Source: Jannaschia sp. M317
GTDB lineage: Bacteria; Pseudomonadota; Alphaproteobacteria; Rhodobacterales; Rhodobacteraceae
DNA: 64,000 nucleotides
Direction of reading: 5' to 3'
Assembly (NCBI RefSeq): GCF_025141175.1
Contig: NZ_CP081155.1
Coordinates: 1,331,001-1,395,000 of the forward strand
In this document: in pieces, positions 31,323-58,660 of the stretch
Position numbering within the stretch: the first letter of the stretch is position 1
Layout: each line of letters starts with the position of its first letter
Program-made: the position numbers and the translations under genes
The notes under the pieces: model-generated
The model's database searches: none
Told to the model about the DNA's origin: nothing
Seen by the model: only the letters and a program-made list of their open reading frames with translations

Positions 31323-31349
31323 ATGAATTCTGCAGTGCAAAAGACCATA

Positions 31350-31425
31350 AGACCTCCCTCCGCCAGCATTATCTGGTTCAGGTTCAAAGGGTACGTCTCA
31401 GCTTTTCAGCGCCCCTGGTACGCAG
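31350..31425 (-). promoter_or_regulatory. TPP riboswitch (THI box)
   Basis: On the minus strand the conserved aptamer elements occur in order: CAGGGGCGCTGAAAAGCTGA, GACGTACCCTTTGAACCTGA and CCAGATAATGCTGGCGGAGG. These are the P1/P2 region, the pyrimidine-sensing CTGAGA part and the pyrophosphate-sensing arm. It lies 60-135 nt upstream of thiM and is followed by a hairpin covering the start region, so TPP should shut off the whole thi operon. Confidence 0.95.
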
Positions 31426-31514
31426 ATGGCTAGTCGTTCCTGGACGGGGCGTCAAACGGATTTGAGATCCGCGACGACAGAGGCAAGTGTCTGTCTGGCC
31501 GCAACGCGGTGCCG

Positions 31515-32913: not shown

Positions 32914-33984
32914 GTGGCCGATTTCAATCAGCAGATTCAAGAAAGCCAGAAACAGGTCACGGCGGCACAGTCCAAAATCTCGGAGATTACGAGCCGGATC
33001 GAAGCAGCACGCGCCAAGCTGGATCAGGGCATCACCATCGACGTGGAAAACGCCACGTTGGAGGATGTGCACGCCCATACCGACACGATGAACGCAAACA
33101 TCGCCGAGTTGATCATGGGGCTGGACGATGTGACGGCGGGGTTCTCCAAGGACTTCGACGAGATGCGGTCCAAGACGGGATGGGAAAGCTTCGTCGGCAT
33201 TTTCGCCTCCGGCAAGTCGGAAGCGATGCGTCAGGAGCGGCTGCGGTCGGCGTCGATCGACGACAAGTTGCAGGACCTGATCTCCAAGTCCGACACGATC
33301 ACCCAGTTGCTGCAAAGCCAGTTGGCGATGCTGAACAACCAGCGCACCAAGGTGGAAACCAACCTTTCCGGCACCCTTGATGATCGAGAGGCCGCCGTGG
33401 CGGAGCTGGAACGCATCCGGGCAGAGATCCTGGCCATGGACCCGCGCCTGATCGAGTTGGAAAACAAGATCTCGGTCGAACAGGACGCCACCGCGCGCAC
33501 CCAACTGGAAAGCGATCTGGCCGAGGCCAACACACGTCACAACGAATTGGTGCAGGCCGAACAGGTGGCGCTGGCCCGGTCGCAGACGCTGGAGCGCTAT
33601 ATCGAAAAGGGCAAGACCTGGGTGGACAGCCTGCAGAACCAGGCGGCGACGCAGATGGTGCTGATCAACAAGCTGGAAACGGACACCAAGCAGCGGGTCG
33701 TGTTGTACGACGCCTTGTCCAAATCGCTGAAGACCGCGCAGCAGCAGGACGTGGCGCACCGGATCAACGAAATCGGCGTGAAAACCGATCAGGAGGCGCA
33801 GCAGGCGATGGCCGCGATCGGGGCCGCAACCAACAGCCGGATGGCCGAAATGCTGGAAGCACACGAAGACCACATGGTCTTCGCCCGCGACGTGCTGGAG
33901 GCCAAGGCCAAGGCGGACGAACGCTTTGCCCGCCGCTTTCAGGCAATTGTCGAGAAGCACGACAAGAACCTTTATGGCGGATGA
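32914..33984 (+). CDS. long coiled-coil protein heading the unknown cluster
   Basis: 356 residues, cysteine-free, rich in Gln, Ala, Glu and Asp, and almost wholly helical (FNQQIQESQKQVTAAQSKIS; DREAAVAELERIRAEILAMD). The general pattern, a short N-terminal region, a long central coiled coil and helical C-terminus (LINKLETDTKQRVVLYDALS), resembles TelA/KlaA-type toxic-anion-resistance proteins, but that is a resemblance, not an established match. I chose the GTG at 32914 because GGGAGG stands eight bases upstream; the longer in-frame ATG at 32704 would overlap the divergent peptidase gene. No signal peptide or membrane helix. Confidence 0.85.
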   Translation: MADFNQQIQESQKQVTAAQSKISEITSRIEAARAKLDQGITIDVENATLEDVHAHTDTMNANIAELIMGLDDVTAGFSKDFDEMRSKTGWESFVGIFASGKSEAMRQERLRSASIDDKLQDLISKSDTITQLLQSQLAMLNNQRTKVETNLSGTLDDREAAVAELERIRAEILAMDPRLIELENKISVEQDATARTQLESDLAEANTRHNELVQAEQVALARSQTLERYIEKGKTWVDSLQNQAATQMVLINKLETDTKQRVVLYDALSKSLKTAQQQDVAHRINEIGVKTDQEAQQAMAAIGAATNSRMAEMLEAHEDHMVFARDVLEAKAKADERFARRFQAIVEKHDKNLYGG

Positions 33985-34054
33985 GGCGGTGACAGAGTTT
34001 CCGCCGGAAATCCTGGCCAGGACCCTCGCCGAAGACGTTGCGCGGCACCCATGA
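33974..34054 (+). CDS. 26-codon micro-ORF linking two genes
   Basis: It starts with an ATG inside the last codons of the coiled-coil gene (11-nt overlap) and ends at a TGA that overlaps the ATG of the next gene (ATGA). The peptide begins MADEAVTEFPPEILARTLAE and ends DVARHP; it is acidic and would form a short helix. The next gene has no evident Shine-Dalgarno sequence, so ribosomes finishing this frame would re-initiate there. It may encode a peptide or serve only as a coupling leader. Confidence 0.55.
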   Translation: MADEAVTEFPPEILARTLAEDVARHP

Positions 34055-35166
34055 CGCTGAAGGAAGACCTGATCCGCGACCACGCGGGCCTGCAGGAAAA
34101 CCGGCAGGCACGGCGCTATTTCGCGAAGTTCGAGACGATCCTGTCGCATCTGCCCCGCGTCGCCGCCGAGATGGAGCGGGACGGGCGATTGACCCGCCGC
34201 GAGTTGGAGGTGCTGGGCCTGCACCTGACCGCGTTGGGCCGGACCTTTCGGGCCTTGTCGCACAAGTATCTGATGACCGGGCGCGACACCGGCGTGTTTC
34301 TCGGCTCGCTCACGGTCGACCGCTCCGCCTCCGGGTTTCCGGTGATGCGGGAGTTGATGTCCATGGCCTCTGACGCGGCGCAGGCGGGCGGGGTCGAGGA
34401 CCGCATTCCCGAGCCGGAGGAGCTGAAGGAGGCGATGCTGGCCGCAATCCTGGGCGAGCGACGCATTCCGACGGATCTGCAATATGCCATGTCCCAGCGG
34501 CTGTATCGGGACCTGCTGCTGGATGGCGCGCTGTTCTGGCCACGCAACGATGTCGTGCTCAGGGGGCTGACCTCTGAGCCGCGGGTTTACCTGATGCACT
34601 GGTCGGCCTGGGACGGACAGCGCAACCTGCCGGTGATCTGGATGATGGAGGTGGAGGACGTGGGCCGCACGCCCTTGCGCGACGACTTCGCGCGGCTGGC
34701 GCGGGTGCAGGGGCATCTGATGGCCCAGGCCCTGCCCGAGTTGAAGCTGCTGACCGTGGCCAAGGGGTTCGACGATGATTTCGACCAGCTGCAGCCCAAA
34801 CGCCTGCGACGGCTGACCGTGGGGCCGATGTATTCCTCGGCCTACACGCGCCAGACCGAGGGGCTTGGTGCCGTGATGGAGGCCGCGCGCGCCCCGGCGG
34901 GCGAGGATTGGGCGCTGGCCTGGACGTTGGAGACGCTGGAAGCGGAGCGGACACGCAGCGAAAGAACCGGATGGTTTTCCTCTGCGGAGCGGGCCGTCTG
35001 GGCGTTGGAGCCGTTGGTCGGGGCCGAGACCGGCGCCACACGGATCGAGCGTGCCGCCATCCTGCCCGAGCGGATCTATCAGGCCCTCGTGGAAAGTGGC
35101 GCGCCGGGGTTTGCGGATGTCGTCAAATATGTCGTCGGCGGCGGGCGGCTGTGGCGGGCCGGGTGA
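34051..35166 (+). CDS. uncharacterised protein of the coiled-coil/AAA+ cluster
   Basis: 371 residues with no signal peptide, membrane helix or cysteine. The N-terminal about 110 residues are helical and charged (LIRDHAGLQENRQARRYFAK), the middle has a beta-rich, Trp-containing stretch (VYLMHWSAWDGQRNLPVIWM), and GRTPLRDDFARLARVQGHLMAQ follows. I do not recognise a family. Start overlap with the micro-ORF couples it to the coiled-coil gene; the AAA+ gene follows after 88 nt. Confidence 0.82.
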   Translation: MTLKEDLIRDHAGLQENRQARRYFAKFETILSHLPRVAAEMERDGRLTRRELEVLGLHLTALGRTFRALSHKYLMTGRDTGVFLGSLTVDRSASGFPVMRELMSMASDAAQAGGVEDRIPEPEELKEAMLAAILGERRIPTDLQYAMSQRLYRDLLLDGALFWPRNDVVLRGLTSEPRVYLMHWSAWDGQRNLPVIWMMEVEDVGRTPLRDDFARLARVQGHLMAQALPELKLLTVAKGFDDDFDQLQPKRLRRLTVGPMYSSAYTRQTEGLGAVMEAARAPAGEDWALAWTLETLEAERTRSERTGWFSSAERAVWALEPLVGAETGATRIERAAILPERIYQALVESGAPGFADVVKYVVGGGRLWRAG

Positions 35167-35223
35167 ATGGGGATCACCGGGCAGGGGGGCTCTGCCCGCC
35201 GTCGCCATCGGGCGACTCCCCCC

Positions 35224-35250
35224 AGGATAGTTTGAAAGCAGAGAAGGAAC
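35224..35250 (+). repeat. GAGTATTT-type extragenic repeat, copy 3
   Basis: AGGATAGTTTGAAAGCAGAG followed by AAGGAAC is a divergent copy. Its AGAAGGA end lies directly before the AAA+ gene's ATG (35255) and is the likely ribosome-binding sequence. Confidence 0.4.
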
Positions 35251-35254
35251 GGGG

Positions 35255-37171
35255 ATGAGCCTGTCCGGAGACGCGGTGGAATTGACAGAAGCGGAAATCG
35301 TGGCCCGATACGGCGCCGCGCTGACCCTGCTGGAGGGGTTCGACCATACGCCGCGATTGGCGCGTGCAGAGGCCCCCGCGCGGGCGGAGCGGTCGCCGGG
35401 GATCGGCACAAGGTCGCGGTTTCGGTCCACCACGCCGGGGTTGGTGACACGGTCGGGGCCGCGGGCCTCTGGTGTGCATCTGCGCGAGGCTGTGGAGGGC
35501 GAAGAGTTGATCTCGCCCACGCGCGCGCACCTGTTGCTGGCGCTGCGCCGTGCGCTGGCGATTGCCATGGCCGTGGGCGGTGCAATCGAGGATCGCAGCG
35601 GCCTGGACGGGCTGAAGGCCGCGAACCTTGCCGGGCGATTGCCGTCGCAGGATGCGGGACGGTTTCGGGAATTGCTGGAGGCGGAGGCGCTGGCCGTGGG
35701 CCACGTCTTTGCCAACGCGCTGGCCTTTCTGATCGCCCCCTTGCGCGGCAGTGACACAGCCGAGGTCCCCCCGCCGGAGGAAGTGCTGACCGACAATGCG
35801 CCCGCCATGCTGGAAGGGCTGCTGTGGGAAATCGACCAGCGGATCGACGGGCTGGACGACGGCGCGATGGTCGCCACCCTGGCCGCGCAGGCGGAGTTGT
35901 TGCTGGAGAGGTTGGCCGATCGGGCGCGGGCAGCGGCACGGGCCTCGGTCTATGGCGAGGTCACATATCGGATCGAGGCAGATGACCTGACGCTGAACGG
36001 CTTCGCCCCGGCGCTGCGCGCGGCGGGCAAACCGTTGACCATGCAGTTCAAGGCCCCCCACGAGGTGGTGGGCAACCACATCGCCAAGCATCAGGCGCTG
36101 AAGCTGTCGAAGATGCTGATGGCCTATGATTTCGACCGCCGCCTGAACCCTTTTGCGGATCTGGGGGGGTTCATCTTCACCTTCATGGGCGACGGGGCGC
36201 CGGGCACGGGCAAGACCACCCTGATCCAGATGATGGCCGGGCTGATCCACGGCTATTGCGAGGTGGCGGGCTATCCGTTCCGCTACGAAAACCTGAGCAC
36301 CGACAGCATCGACAGCTACCAGGGGAAATCGGCGCAGAACGCCAAGGCCTTTATCAATGGGGTGCTGGACCCGAACGTGATCGGCTTTGGCACAATCGAC
36401 GACATTGACCAGCTGGCGGGCAAGCGCGGCGACCGGCAGGCCAGCGCGGGCCAGTTGGAAATCACCGCCGTCCTGATGGAGAGTTTCGCAGGCGCAAATA
36501 CCGTCGTGCGGGGCAACTGCACCTTTGGCATGTTCTCGAACTACCCCGAAAACGTAGACGACGCCCTGCGCCAACGGGCGGGCGCGCGGTTCCTGGTGGA
36601 CGGGCCGCAGACGCAGGCCGACTACATCGACATCCTGGCGCTGCTGCTGGGCAAGCGGCACGACATCCCGCTGGGCGACCACGACTTGTTCGCGGCCCAG
36701 GAGCTGACGCGCGCGGTGGCCGAAAGCTACGCCAAACACGCCCGTCCGGCGGAACAGCGTCTGGCCCAGGTTTTCGAAGACGTGCGCGACCGCATCGGGG
36801 ACCTGGATACGATTGCCAAGATCGGCACCTACCTGAAGGGCATCCAGGAGGCGGACGAACGCTTCACCGGGCGGGCGATCAAGAACATCACAGACGCGGT
36901 AAAGGTCCGCGCCATGGACGTGGATCTGCCGGATGACTGGTTCGAGACGGCCGACGCATTCATGCACCGGTCCTACGACGAGAAACTGGCCATGGTGTCA
37001 GAGCTGCGCGTGCCGATCACGACAGAGATGGTCCTGCAGGAGGTCAACCGCTACGCCGACAGCGAATTCCGCTATGCCGACAAATCCGACGAGGTGGCCA
37101 TCGACGCCATGGTCCGCGACATGGGCCGGGCGGAAGAGGCCAAGCGCCGCTATCTGGAGGGCAAGGCATGA
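35255..37171 (+). CDS. AAA+ ATPase with long unknown N-terminal region
   Basis: 638 residues. The AAA+ module has Walker A GAPGTGKTT (314-322, Lys320), Walker B IGFGTIDDID (376-385, Asp382/Asp383), a sensor-1-like Asn in MFSNYPENVDDALRQRAGAR with candidate arginine fingers, and a helical C-terminal part. The first about 300 residues are unrecognised, with a basic low-complexity stretch near 45-75 and three helical segments. No metal-binding or protease domain is seen, so it is probably a remodelling ATPase or chaperone for its cluster partners. The stop overlaps the following membrane-protein gene. Confidence 0.9.
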   Translation: MSLSGDAVELTEAEIVARYGAALTLLEGFDHTPRLARAEAPARAERSPGIGTRSRFRSTTPGLVTRSGPRASGVHLREAVEGEELISPTRAHLLLALRRALAIAMAVGGAIEDRSGLDGLKAANLAGRLPSQDAGRFRELLEAEALAVGHVFANALAFLIAPLRGSDTAEVPPPEEVLTDNAPAMLEGLLWEIDQRIDGLDDGAMVATLAAQAELLLERLADRARAAARASVYGEVTYRIEADDLTLNGFAPALRAAGKPLTMQFKAPHEVVGNHIAKHQALKLSKMLMAYDFDRRLNPFADLGGFIFTFMGDGAPGTGKTTLIQMMAGLIHGYCEVAGYPFRYENLSTDSIDSYQGKSAQNAKAFINGVLDPNVIGFGTIDDIDQLAGKRGDRQASAGQLEITAVLMESFAGANTVVRGNCTFGMFSNYPENVDDALRQRAGARFLVDGPQTQADYIDILALLLGKRHDIPLGDHDLFAAQELTRAVAESYAKHARPAEQRLAQVFEDVRDRIGDLDTIAKIGTYLKGIQEADERFTGRAIKNITDAVKVRAMDVDLPDDWFETADAFMHRSYDEKLAMVSELRVPITTEMVLQEVNRYADSEFRYADKSDEVAIDAMVRDMGRAEEAKRRYLEGKA

Positions 37172-37473
37172 GCCTGATCCTGCCGGTTCTCTTCCTGGCC
37201 GCGCTGGCCTGGATCGTGCCCTGGGGGCTGGGTCGGGTCCTGCCCGAAGGTCTGGGCTGGCTGATCGTCAACGGGATGATCTCGGTCGTGGCGCTGGCGG
37301 TCGGGGCGGGGGCGTTGTTCGTTCTGCTTTACGGCTCGGCAGGGGGCGTGGTCTGGCAGGAGGCGCCCTGGCACTTCGTTTCGCTGTCGGCCCGGTCGGC
37401 CATCGTCTGGGGGCCGGTACTGGTTCTGTCGCTGGCCAACCTGCCGCGCGGGTGGCGGGAGGTGGAGTGGTGA
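37168..37473 (+). CDS. small membrane protein, three helices
   Basis: 101 residues. Three hydrophobic segments are visible: about 3-20 (ILPVLFLAALAWIVPWGL), 30-55 (WLIVNGMISVVALAVGAGALF) and 75-92 (AIVWGPVLVLSLANL). The ATG overlaps the AAA+ gene stop by four nt (ATGA). No known family; its coupling suggests a membrane anchor or target of the ATPase. Confidence 0.8.
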   Translation: MSLILPVLFLAALAWIVPWGLGRVLPEGLGWLIVNGMISVVALAVGAGALFVLLYGSAGGVVWQEAPWHFVSLSARSAIVWGPVLVLSLANLPRGWREVEW

Positions 37474-37544
37474 TGGAACGTTCACGGGCCTTCCCCCCAA
37501 GCCAGCCACGGCCAGGCGATAGGGGGCCGACATGCACCGCCTGA
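37473..37544 (+). CDS. possible 23-codon micro-ORF
   Basis: An ATG overlaps the stop of the small membrane protein (TGATG), and the frame ends 13 nt inside the next gene. The peptide is Pro/Arg-rich (MERSRAFPPSQPRPGDRG...). Only the overlap supports it; the composition is also what chance gives in this DNA. Confidence 0.2.
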   Translation: MERSRAFPPSQPRPGDRGPTCTA

Positions 37545-38836
37545 TCCGCCACGGACTGATGTTCGGGGGCCTCTTCGAGGTGTCCGCCCCGGCGCTGGTC
37601 GACCGCTACAACCGCGCGTTGGCGCACCTGATCGGCAAGCGCACCGCGCTCGACAGTTTTCATATCGACCTCAGCGGGTTCTCACCCGAGGTGGGCGATG
37701 AATTCGGGGACATGGATTACCTGAACCCCGGCGGCTGCAACCGACAGATCATCCTGCTGTCCACCCAGCAGCGCCACGCCCCCCTGTTGGAGATGAAGTT
37801 CTCGACCACGCAGGACATCCTGCGCGCCTTTATCGCCGCCAACGAGGCGCAGTTGTTCACCCTGACCGCGCGGGATGCGGTGGCGGGGGAATTGCAGAAC
37901 TCCGTTTTTGGGGTGCCGGACCCGGCGCGGTTGCTCGACATCCGTTCGGTGACCGTCGAGGCGGATACCACCACCGGCATCGTGCGCGACGCCGAGGAAC
38001 TGGACCGCCTCGTTACCCGCTTCCGCGAGGAGGAGGACGCCTGGTGGGACGACGTGTTGGTGGCGCGGATGATCGGGCTGGCGCAGACGACCGGCGATGT
38101 GTCCCGCGCGCCCGTCCGGTTCGAAAGCCCGGTTTACCAGCAGGACGATTTCTGGACCGCCCATCACGGGGGCGTCTACATCTTCCGCTCGGTCGAGCAG
38201 CCGGCGGTTGTCGCGAACGCGCCCTTCCGCGCGCCGGGGGTCGAGGTTCTGGACCTGGCCGACCGGCATCTGATTGCGACCTTCCTGCGCGCCAACGGTC
38301 TGGTCCAGCCCATCGTCGAGGGCCGGGGCCAGGCGGCGGCGGGGATCCTGCGCGAAAAGCTGGACCATCTGGTGATCGACGCACTGGGAGCGATGGGCGA
38401 ACTGCCAGATCAGGTCGACGACCGCGCCCTGCGCCGTGCGATGCAGCGCCATGGCGCGGCCTTGCCCGCCGAGGTGCATTCCCTGGGCGCGATGCTGGCC
38501 TGGGCCGAGGGCCGCGGCGACTGGCCCCATATCGACAGCGGCAACGCCGCCTATTTCCACACGCTGCGCGCCGCGCCGGGGCCTTTGCGCGACCTGGTCA
38601 ACATGCTGCTGGCCGAACTGGCCCCGCAGGATTTCCGCCAACTGCACATCTGTCACAAGCCGTTGTTCTACGACCGCTACCGCCGCGCGTCCGAGCCGTG
38701 GAAGGAATGGGTCGCGGCCCGGCTCGCCAGGGACTACGCTGCGGATCGCGGCGGGGTGTGGGCGCATCTCTATGCGTCGGACGTGGCGCGGCCAATGCCG
38801 AAGGTTGCGGCCCGTGTGAAAGGACCATGGGGGTAG
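37532..38836 (+). CDS. uncharacterised 434-residue protein of the cluster
   Basis: 434 residues, no signal peptide, no clear membrane helix. Notable segments are LMFGGLFEVSAPALVDRYNR at the N-terminus, FHIDLSGFSPEVGDEFGDMD, a Trp-rich acidic stretch FREEEDAWWDDVLVARMIGL and a C-terminal HICHKPLFYDRYRRASEPWK. I do not recognise a family. AGGGGG precedes the ATG at 37532. It lies between two small membrane-protein genes. Confidence 0.82.
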   Translation: MHRLIRHGLMFGGLFEVSAPALVDRYNRALAHLIGKRTALDSFHIDLSGFSPEVGDEFGDMDYLNPGGCNRQIILLSTQQRHAPLLEMKFSTTQDILRAFIAANEAQLFTLTARDAVAGELQNSVFGVPDPARLLDIRSVTVEADTTTGIVRDAEELDRLVTRFREEEDAWWDDVLVARMIGLAQTTGDVSRAPVRFESPVYQQDDFWTAHHGGVYIFRSVEQPAVVANAPFRAPGVEVLDLADRHLIATFLRANGLVQPIVEGRGQAAAGILREKLDHLVIDALGAMGELPDQVDDRALRRAMQRHGAALPAEVHSLGAMLAWAEGRGDWPHIDSGNAAYFHTLRAAPGPLRDLVNMLLAELAPQDFRQLHICHKPLFYDRYRRASEPWKEWVAARLARDYAADRGGVWAHLYASDVARPMPKVAARVKGPWG

Positions 38837-38837
38837 A

Positions 38838-39104
38838 ATGCTGGGACTGTTGAGACTGGCCGTTGTTCTGTTGATCGGGCTGACGGTGATCTATTGGGCG
38901 CTCGTCTTCTACTTTCGGGCGGGTGAAAAGGACCGGTTGGAGAGGGAATGGGCCGAAACCCAACCGCCTCTGCCGGAGGAAACCTTTGTGCGCAACGGAT
39001 TGCGCGATTATCAGGGGTCCTTGCGTCGCAAACTGCTTTGGGCTGTCTATATCATTCCCATCAGCGCGATCTGCACGCTGATCTATTACGTGAACTACGC
39101 CTGA
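38838..39104 (+). CDS. small membrane protein, two helices
   Basis: 88 residues with an N-terminal helix (LRLAVVLLIGLTVIYWALVF) and a C-terminal helix (LLWAVYIIPISAICTLIYYV) separated by about 40 charged residues (KDRLEREWAETQPPLPEE). One nucleotide after the previous stop, so in the same operon. Unknown family. Confidence 0.82.
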   Translation: MLGLLRLAVVLLIGLTVIYWALVFYFRAGEKDRLEREWAETQPPLPEETFVRNGLRDYQGSLRRKLLWAVYIIPISAICTLIYYVNYA

Positions 39105-39116
39105 GGGGGCCTTGCC

Positions 39117-39770
39117 ATGCGGTTTGTGAAATGGGGTCTGGGCCTGGTCGTCTTTGCGGTGGCGGGTGCGTTCCTGCACTATACCCTGCCGCAGACCGAT
39201 ATCGTGCGCGTGGTGAACACCGAGGTGCAGCGCTTCGACTTCGGCGAGAATTCGATCTTCTGGGCGGGCGGTGATGTCGGGGCGGATGGCACGGCCGTCA
39301 ATCGCGACGTCCGCATCATCGAGACGGTCAAACCCAACGGCCGCCCGTCTGTCTATCGCAACGAGGACACGGGATGGGGCTGGCCGCCGTATTTCAAACT
39401 CGACAGCTCGAACCTGCAGACCGAGGCGCGCGACCTCGTGTCGACCTCCGCCGATCCGCAATGGGTGGCGCTGACGCATTACGGCTGGCGGTCGGAATTC
39501 CTGACGATCTTTCCGAACGCCGTCGGAATTCGACCTGTCGACAGTCCGGATGCGACGATCATCCCCTGGTTCAACATCATCTTCCTGACGATCCTGGCAG
39601 CCATCCTCTGGGCGATCGGCGTGCGCATCCTGAGGTTCCGACGCAACCGCATCGACCCGTTGATCGAAGATGCGGGCGAAGCCTGGGACGAAGCGGGCGA
39701 CCGGGTCGCCGCCCGCCGAAAAGGTCTGCGTGCCTGGCTGGATACCTGGAAGGGAAAGCCCCGCGTGTGA
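39117..39770 (+). CDS. DUF1523 family membrane protein
   Basis: 217 residues. An N-terminal helix (GLGLVVFAVAGAFLHYTL), a periplasmic domain with VNTEVQRFDFGENSIFWAGGD and WVALTHYGWRSEFLTIFPNA, and a C-terminal helix (IIFLTILAAILWAIGVRIL) followed by a basic tail. This matches DUF1523, a family of unknown function found in Alphaproteobacteria. Last gene of the cluster; the antiporter operon converges on it 37 nt later. Confidence 0.85.
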   Translation: MRFVKWGLGLVVFAVAGAFLHYTLPQTDIVRVVNTEVQRFDFGENSIFWAGGDVGADGTAVNRDVRIIETVKPNGRPSVYRNEDTGWGWPPYFKLDSSNLQTEARDLVSTSADPQWVALTHYGWRSEFLTIFPNAVGIRPVDSPDATIIPWFNIIFLTILAAILWAIGVRILRFRRNRIDPLIEDAGEAWDEAGDRVAARRKGLRAWLDTWKGKPRV

Positions 39771-58448: not shown

Positions 58449-58509
58449 GCGCCTGTCTTTCCCTCTTGCGCCTGGGCGGTCAAGTTTCGTATCGGAAACC
58501 TGCACGGCA

Positions 58510-58660
58510 CGGGAGACTCTGACCCCTGCGTCAGGGCCGAAGGAGCAACCGCCCCGGTAAACTCTCAGGCGAACGGACCTGTCGTGCATCGAACTCTGGA
58601 GAGAGGCGCGAACAGGCGTCCGCCGAAGGGATAGCGATCTCAGGCGAAGGGACAGAGGGG
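58510..58660 (+). promoter_or_regulatory. tandem glycine riboswitch
   Basis: Two consecutive gcvT-type aptamers: aptamer 1 (about 58510-58580) with CGGGAGACTCTGACC, GCCGAAGGAGCAACC and CTCTCAGGCGAACGGAC; aptamer 2 (about 58594-58660) with CTCTGGAGAGAGGCG, CGCCGAAGGGATAGC and TCTCAGGCGAAGGGACAGAG. A GCGGGC/GCCCGC hairpin (58670-58684) follows at once and ends beside the gcvT AGGAGG, a candidate expression platform. Glycine binding should turn the gcv genes on. Confidence 0.95.

Follow-up and report, generated by a model that had tools for sequence, protein, structure and literature searches.

Several described bacterial systems resemble, each in one respect, the gene cluster considered here. 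CBASS and Lamassu combine a conserved core with exchangeable, AT-rich and effector-like genes, ATPases of the MoxR and Vps4 types stand beside a coiled-coil-like partner, and TRIP13- and IetA-type ATPases (as modelled in PADLOC) have a similar AAA core. The cluster lies at positions 32914-39770 of a 64,000-nucleotide stretch of Jannaschia sp. M317 (Rhodobacteraceae; NCBI RefSeq assembly GCF_025141175.1, contig NZ_CP081155.1, positions 1,331,001-1,395,000, forward strand; the whole stretch is hereafter called the window), and four of its genes form a conserved core encoding a coiled-coil-like protein (CC), a 371-residue protein (U371), an AAA-type ATPase (AAA) and a protein of family DUF6638. 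A sequence-only reading of this DNA had proposed that seven co-oriented open reading frames (ORFs) and one micro-ORF, all of which we find where it placed them, encode a single undescribed system.

The likenesses have clear limits. The scores of AAA against TRIP13 (E 1.2e-5) and IetA (6e-4) are weak, and the window protein differs from both in an Asp-Asp Walker B pattern and in a long N terminus outside the Pfam match; neither HORMA nor IetS was matched among the seven window genes in a Pfam scan (no wider search was made). Unlike CBASS and Lamassu, the four-gene core often occurs without large cargo, and CC, U371 and the DUF6638 protein gave no match to partners of the MoxR or Vps4 type in Pfam, NCBIfam or solved structures. 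PADLOC-DB 2.0.0 yielded no strong match for the window CC, U371, AAA, DUF6638 and DUF1523 proteins, nor for CC, U371 and AAA of a second locus (L011; L and G numbers are our identifiers for loci and genomes). Searches of the open-licence literature with combined terms found no description of the gene system, no paper on DUF6638 and no function for DUF6638 or DUF1523.

A four-gene core and a separable membrane module

In the window, the core comprises CC (32914-33984, plus strand; 356 amino acids with a GTG start, as read from the ORF), U371 (34051-35166, plus strand; 371 amino acids), AAA (35255-37171, plus strand; 638 amino acids) and the DUF6638 protein (37532-38836, plus strand; 434 amino acids). 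We compared 98 loci, that is, 80 named loci (the best 80 of 562 stretches confirmed in a genome scan with the AAA profile) and 18 others, with two genomes represented twice (L011/L059 and L046/L107). By profile search, CC, U371, AAA and DUF6638 occur in this order on one strand at 91 of the 98 loci, and at 85 of the 98 all four are accompanied by DUF1523. Five of the seven exceptions (L074, L080, L089, L114 and L118) are cut by a contig end or lie no more than 1.4 kb from one, and the two others have AAA alone (L064) or lack CC (L092). The sequence-only reading had staked its proposal on the genes being kept together in related genomes, and the core genes are. The shared arrangement is far beyond chance, since gene order and strand are unchanged in other families and in another class.

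The named hosts of core loci include Rhodobacteraceae, Stappia, Roseibium, Aestuariispira and Halomonas. Ten plasmid records from Sinorhizobium, Shinella, Rhizobium and Vibrio match AAA (tblastn). Three of them were examined: profiles recognize all four core genes in a Sinorhizobium meliloti record and in one Vibrio record, and a second Vibrio record shows the same gene lengths. A protein search with the Vibrio U371 as query found 3 related proteins only, and the Vibrio lineage therefore seems thinly sampled or divergent. A link of the cluster to S. meliloti SMc02733 (a ChvI-bound fragment), which we presume from locus-tag order, was not used. Overall, the core is uncommon outside its family: a search of 289 genomes of the class placed DUF6638 above its cut-off in 5, of which four belong to the same family, and U371 is present in 26 of 398 genomes of the phylum.

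Within the family, we surveyed 159 genomes (one per genus) and found U371 in 66 and DUF6638 in 73, with DUF6638 present in every one of the 66 genomes that have U371 (in a few as fragments). Among the seven genomes with DUF6638 only, the matches in G716, G764, G814 and G822 are partial or near a contig start, that in G738 is partial with a stop, G776 is without explanation, and G815 retains a 59-residue remnant directly before DUF1523 (G815:C3:204181-204360) that is likely to be a trace of core loss. CC, U371, AAA and DUF6638 are one gene unit, jointly present or absent.

The remaining genes form a second module, consisting of M101 (37168-37473, plus strand; a small hydrophobic protein), M88 (38838-39104, plus strand; a small membrane protein with two hydrophobic segments) and the DUF1523 protein (39117-39770, plus strand; PF07509, E 2.2e-68; two hydrophobic segments). 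In a hydropathy scan, hydrophobic 19-residue segments were clear in these three proteins, borderline only in AAA, and found in none of CC, U371 and DUF6638. Across the 159 genomes, DUF1523 is present in 138, that is, in 65 of the 66 with U371, in all seven with DUF6638 only and in 66 of the 86 that lack both. A relative of M88 occupies 78 of 88 DUF6638-DUF1523 junctions, and 8 of the remainder have no room for one. DUF1523 is missing beside the core in the Vibrio records and in a giant-phage-like contig described below, and in S. meliloti and in two tested loci of family f160 the gene that follows DUF6638 is DUF2333.

The genus Jannaschia, in which U371 is present in 7 of 20 genomes, shows the separation most directly. 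In the 19 other genomes we examined the region around the peptidase gene that precedes the window cluster (in G666, the region around the core). The cluster is complete in six of the 19. In five of these it is flanked by the peptidase gene and mnhG; in the sixth (L176) mnhG comes after it, and the fetched piece showed no peptidase gene. Thirteen genomes remain, and in these CC, U371, AAA and DUF6638 are all absent from the 16-17 kb beside the peptidase gene, and U371 was not found anywhere in the whole genomes; M88 persists in all 13, M101 in 12, DUF1523 in six, and mnhG lies in the piece in eight. As M101 sits between AAA and DUF6638, the core genes are missing from two separate stretches. 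In single-gene trees, the core label changes 6 times on mnhD (15 rows), at least 5 of them on well-supported branches, and 3 times on the weakly supported peptidase tree (19 rows), where 1 change is forced by support. The seven window genes are thus two modules, and the proposal of an undescribed system stands in part: there is a conserved unit, of which our searches found no description, that includes an ATPase of remodelling type and a coiled-coil-like partner, but it does not take in all seven genes.

A variable slot and its cargo

The distance from the AAA stop to DUF6638 ranges from -4 to 2382 bp, and that from DUF6638 to DUF1523 is about 280 bp in most Rhodobacteraceae loci. Neither this variable slot nor the phage-like copy of the core was visible to the sequence-only reading from the window alone, where the slot is occupied by M101, whose start overlaps the AAA stop (ATGA), an overlap that had been described correctly. 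For 88 loci (the 94 with AAA and DUF6638, minus five of family f160 and L011), we asked which slots hold a large ORF, defined as a plus-strand ORF of at least 170 amino acids; 32 do, in 16 the gap is less than 60 bp, and in the other 40 it is wider but contains no large ORF. ORFs of at least 130 amino acids lie wholly inside the AAA/DUF6638 junction at 35 of 89 loci; the counts for the other junctions are 5 of 86, 3 of 88 and 0 of 88. The gap is short or overlapping in the Halomonas, Stappia, Roseibium and Aestuariispira loci, in one Vibrio record and in the phage-like contig.

The contents of the slot (hereafter, cargo) differ from the core in composition and in history. In all 32 loci with a large ORF, the guanine-cytosine (GC) content of the slot is lower than that of the core, by 10.3 points on average; 24 of the 32 slots of at least 250 bp that lack a large ORF also have lower GC than the core, by 3.1 points. 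For two of the large ORFs, L070 and L122, GC is close to that of the core or above it, and these may be shadow ORFs. In 46 pairs of loci, the AAA proteins are 90 to <100% identical; both members have a large ORF in nine of these pairs, which are not independent and of which two involve L070, and the cargo is homologous in none of the nine (E 1e-3). Where AAA is 85-90% identical, cargo is homologous in 2 of 12 pairs. Slot turnover is fast. At 15 of 32 loci the start of the large ORF overlaps the AAA stop by 4 bp (offset -3), and the same holds for any open frame of at least 60 codons at 20 of the 32 and at 45 of all 94 loci, as raw counts.

Some of the cargo is defence-like. Searching 21 of the larger slot proteins against Pfam gave matches above the cut-off to Mrr (L063, 5.4e-32), putAbiC (L086, 5.4e-18), AbiJ_NTD4 (L010, 3.7e-10) and DUF3825 (L058, 1.8e-8), and matches below it to HNH (L129), HATPase (L078) and DUF4145 (L055). 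PADLOC, run on ten, matched L063 (9.2e-33) and L129 (2.5e-5) to type IV restriction models, L078 to DrmA (7.6e-9), L055 to GajB (at 0.008) and, weakly, L060 and L086 to HEPN and AbiC/AbiP models, and left four of the ten, including L010, without a match. We take a motif in L055, L057 and L060 to be HEPN-like. The commonest cargo family occurs at twelve loci (including L086), and to judge by eye its members have a hydrophobic stretch at the N terminus, after which comes a charged, helix-like one; of the seven matches of this family in the 159 family genomes, the four strong ones (G788, G715, G710 and G795) lie between U371 and DUF6638. In one core-less Jannaschia (L163), an Mrr-type gene stands between M101 and M88, its copy broken by an in-frame stop. 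The slots of family f160 hold small ORFs of one look, of which the one scanned (L048) is DUF559. In the Rhizobiales form of the locus (L139, L048-L052), the slot carries a DUF559-type gene ('endonuclease domain'), and DUF6638 is followed by DUF2333 in the loci tested for it.

Core proteins, the phage-like copy and the surroundings

The sequence-only reading had recognized only the ATPase and DUF1523 as members of known families. Both assignments hold (PF00004; PF07509, 229.5 bits versus a cut-off of 23), and to them must be added the 434-residue protein, which is DUF6638 (PF20343, E 3.9e-164, 547.1 bits versus a cut-off of 27). CC, U371, M101 and M88 matched no family above the cut-off in Pfam or NCBIfam, and the coiled-coil label of CC derives from weak SMC-type matches and a reading of the sequence. 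In AAA, the PF00004 match covers residues 314-447 only (E 3e-11, 44.3 bits versus a cut-off of 21.2), which bears out the earlier remark that about 300 N-terminal residues lie outside any recognized domain. Among 99 AAA relatives (two genomes being counted twice), a Walker A pattern is present in all and an Asp-Asp Walker B pattern in 98 (the exception being L095); an Asp-Glu pattern is present in none. The Walker B motif of AAA+ proteins normally has a catalytic Glu, which is here replaced, conservatively, by Asp, and the filing of the 638-residue protein under AAA+ therefore rests on other features. The Asp-for-Glu change suggests that ATP turnover may be slow and switch-like.

U371 has 1310 relatives at E<=1e-3 among 8000 candidates scored, the nearest named ones being from Jannaschia; Phaeobacter inhibens is also among the named sources of relatives. 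Its AlphaFold2 model is confident (predicted local distance difference test score, pLDDT, 90.2), and Foldseek found no PDB match to it at E<=1e-3. For residues 174-335, we considered a T-fold (as in urate oxidase and dihydroneopterin aldolase), for which all fold-search matches are below significance. Homology between U371 and DUF6638 was also considered and is unsupported (hhalign probability 0.3%).

Word-pattern scans of viral contigs, which were not exhaustive, found one contig with an AAA relative (359,044 bp), and it carries all four core genes in order (L177 4825-11211; G826), with 16 bp from AAA to DUF6638; U371 and AAA are separated by about 0.9 kb that holds small ORFs. PHROGs families are shown for 25 of 45 sampled proteins of this contig, including a polymerase clamp loader, topoisomerase II subunits, an RNA ligase and two virion-structural families; a further scan, of ten proteins, confirmed the topoisomerases and gave no match for five. 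Terminase_6N was not found in the contig, and the phage label therefore rests on the PHROGs matches: the contig is giant-phage-like, not proven phage. Phage genome records gave no DUF6638 match at E 0.01. To the eye, the genes around the core on the contig resemble genes for translation, chaperones and homing endonucleases, and a TelA-type 'tellurite resistance' protein is encoded away from the core (L179 17896-18822). A second contig of the viral collection has CC alone (42% identity) near the contig end (L188 10001-11068).

The micro-ORF of the window (33974-34054, plus strand; 26 amino acids) overlaps the ATG of U371, as had been described, and is not a general feature (the CC and U371 matches abut in L160). 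At 20 loci (for example, L010), the CC-U371 junction holds small plus-strand ORFs of one recurring family. The left flank of the cluster has a gene for an M20-type peptidase and thiamine genes preceded by a thiamine pyrophosphate (TPP) riboswitch (31338-31426, minus strand), and to the right, on the opposite strand, lie Mrp-antiporter-like genes, a name that is the sequence-only reading's and ours and does not come from a family search. Tandem glycine riboswitch aptamers are present further downstream (58500-58657, plus strand).

Two possible readings: conflict machine or landing site

We tentatively suggest that the core is a cytosolic AAA+ remodelling machine that acts, most likely, in conflict with phages or mobile elements. 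We infer complex formation, a threading mechanism, a functional link between cargo and core, and the conflict role itself. In such a scenario, CC, U371, AAA and the DUF6638 protein would join as one cytosolic complex in which AAA forms a ring and its long N-terminal region recruits the three other proteins; threading or unfolding powered by ATP may then convert the CC rod, or a bound client, from one state to another, and the slot would take in interchangeable genes for effectors or defence, whose translation would often follow directly on that of the ATPase. The joint absence of the core genes, the types of cargo, the overlap of cargo with AAA and the phage-like copy favour a role in conflict. 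A bolder form of this idea is that the core is the sensor-motor of an undescribed immune platform that licenses the slot effector (nuclease, HEPN-like or AbiC-like) on infection, and that a giant phage took the core for use against rivals or to disarm its host; this we consider rather unlikely.

Several observations weigh against a conflict role. The window AAA is 53-68% identical to four relatives, one of them from another family, which is slow for an arms race; core and flank GC are about equal on average (-0.3 points, 84 loci); and the window locus sits among housekeeping genes. Cargo is dispensable, as the 16 narrow gaps and the 40 further slots without a large ORF show, and 14 of the 21 larger slot proteins had no Pfam match at 0.01. 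The overlap figures are raw counts, slot members supplied the profile of the commonest cargo family, and that family's weaker relatives (G812, G709 and G675) lie outside the slot, two of them in core-less genomes. PADLOC offered AAA only the TRIP13 and IetA matches, and nothing convincing for the other core proteins. On the mnhD tree the core label shows no more clustering than it does in shuffles (454 of 500 were as low), which is consistent with frequent exchange and also with an unreliable single-gene tree.

We hold it equally likely that the core works in housekeeping or stress, as a dispensable AAA+ machine for remodelling proteins or nucleoproteins, and that its operon merely serves as a transcribed landing site for AT-rich defence genes that act alone. 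Slow core evolution, host-like GC and the existence of cargo-free cores favour such a machine, as does the closeness or overlap of AAA and DUF6638 where the gap is narrow; Mrr-type enzymes are known to act alone, and related cargo is found elsewhere too. A mere landing site accounts less readily for the concentration of large inserts at one junction, for the overlap of the large ORF with the AAA stop in nearly half of the loci that have one, and for the fact that the slot is where the commonest cargo family has its strong relatives.

It is improbable that all seven genes make up one membrane-associated envelope-maintenance device, as the sequence-only reading had envisaged. In Rhodobacteraceae, DUF1523 and M88 are strongly linked to the core, which speaks for such a device, as does DUF2333 after DUF6638 in family f160 and Sinorhizobium. 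Against it, M101, M88 and DUF1523 are retained in the absence of the four soluble genes, both at the core-less Jannaschia sites and (for DUF1523) in most family genomes that lack U371 and DUF6638, and the Vibrio and phage-like cores do without DUF1523. The further impression that CC is a relative of TelA and that the system answers toxic anions is very improbable, in that a 22-column local resemblance (hhalign, E 0.11, against a narrow set of 6 TelA sequences) weakened to E 0.29 once one diverse TelA was added as a seventh (probability 0.2-0.5% across the two comparisons), reversed-profile controls gave E 0.43 and 0.67, five CC proteins had no PF05816 match at E up to 5, and a PF05816 protein is encoded elsewhere in the same genome.

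In summary, the boundary of the system is corrected to four genes that behave as a unit, three of whose proteins are without known function, one of them (U371) with a confidently predicted structure that has no significant match among solved structures. U371 occurs in 66 of the 159 sampled genera of a major marine family, and the core is also found in Sinorhizobium, Vibrio, Halomonas and a phage-like contig. The slot makes a role in conflict with phages directly testable, as nearly identical cores with different cargo can be compared.

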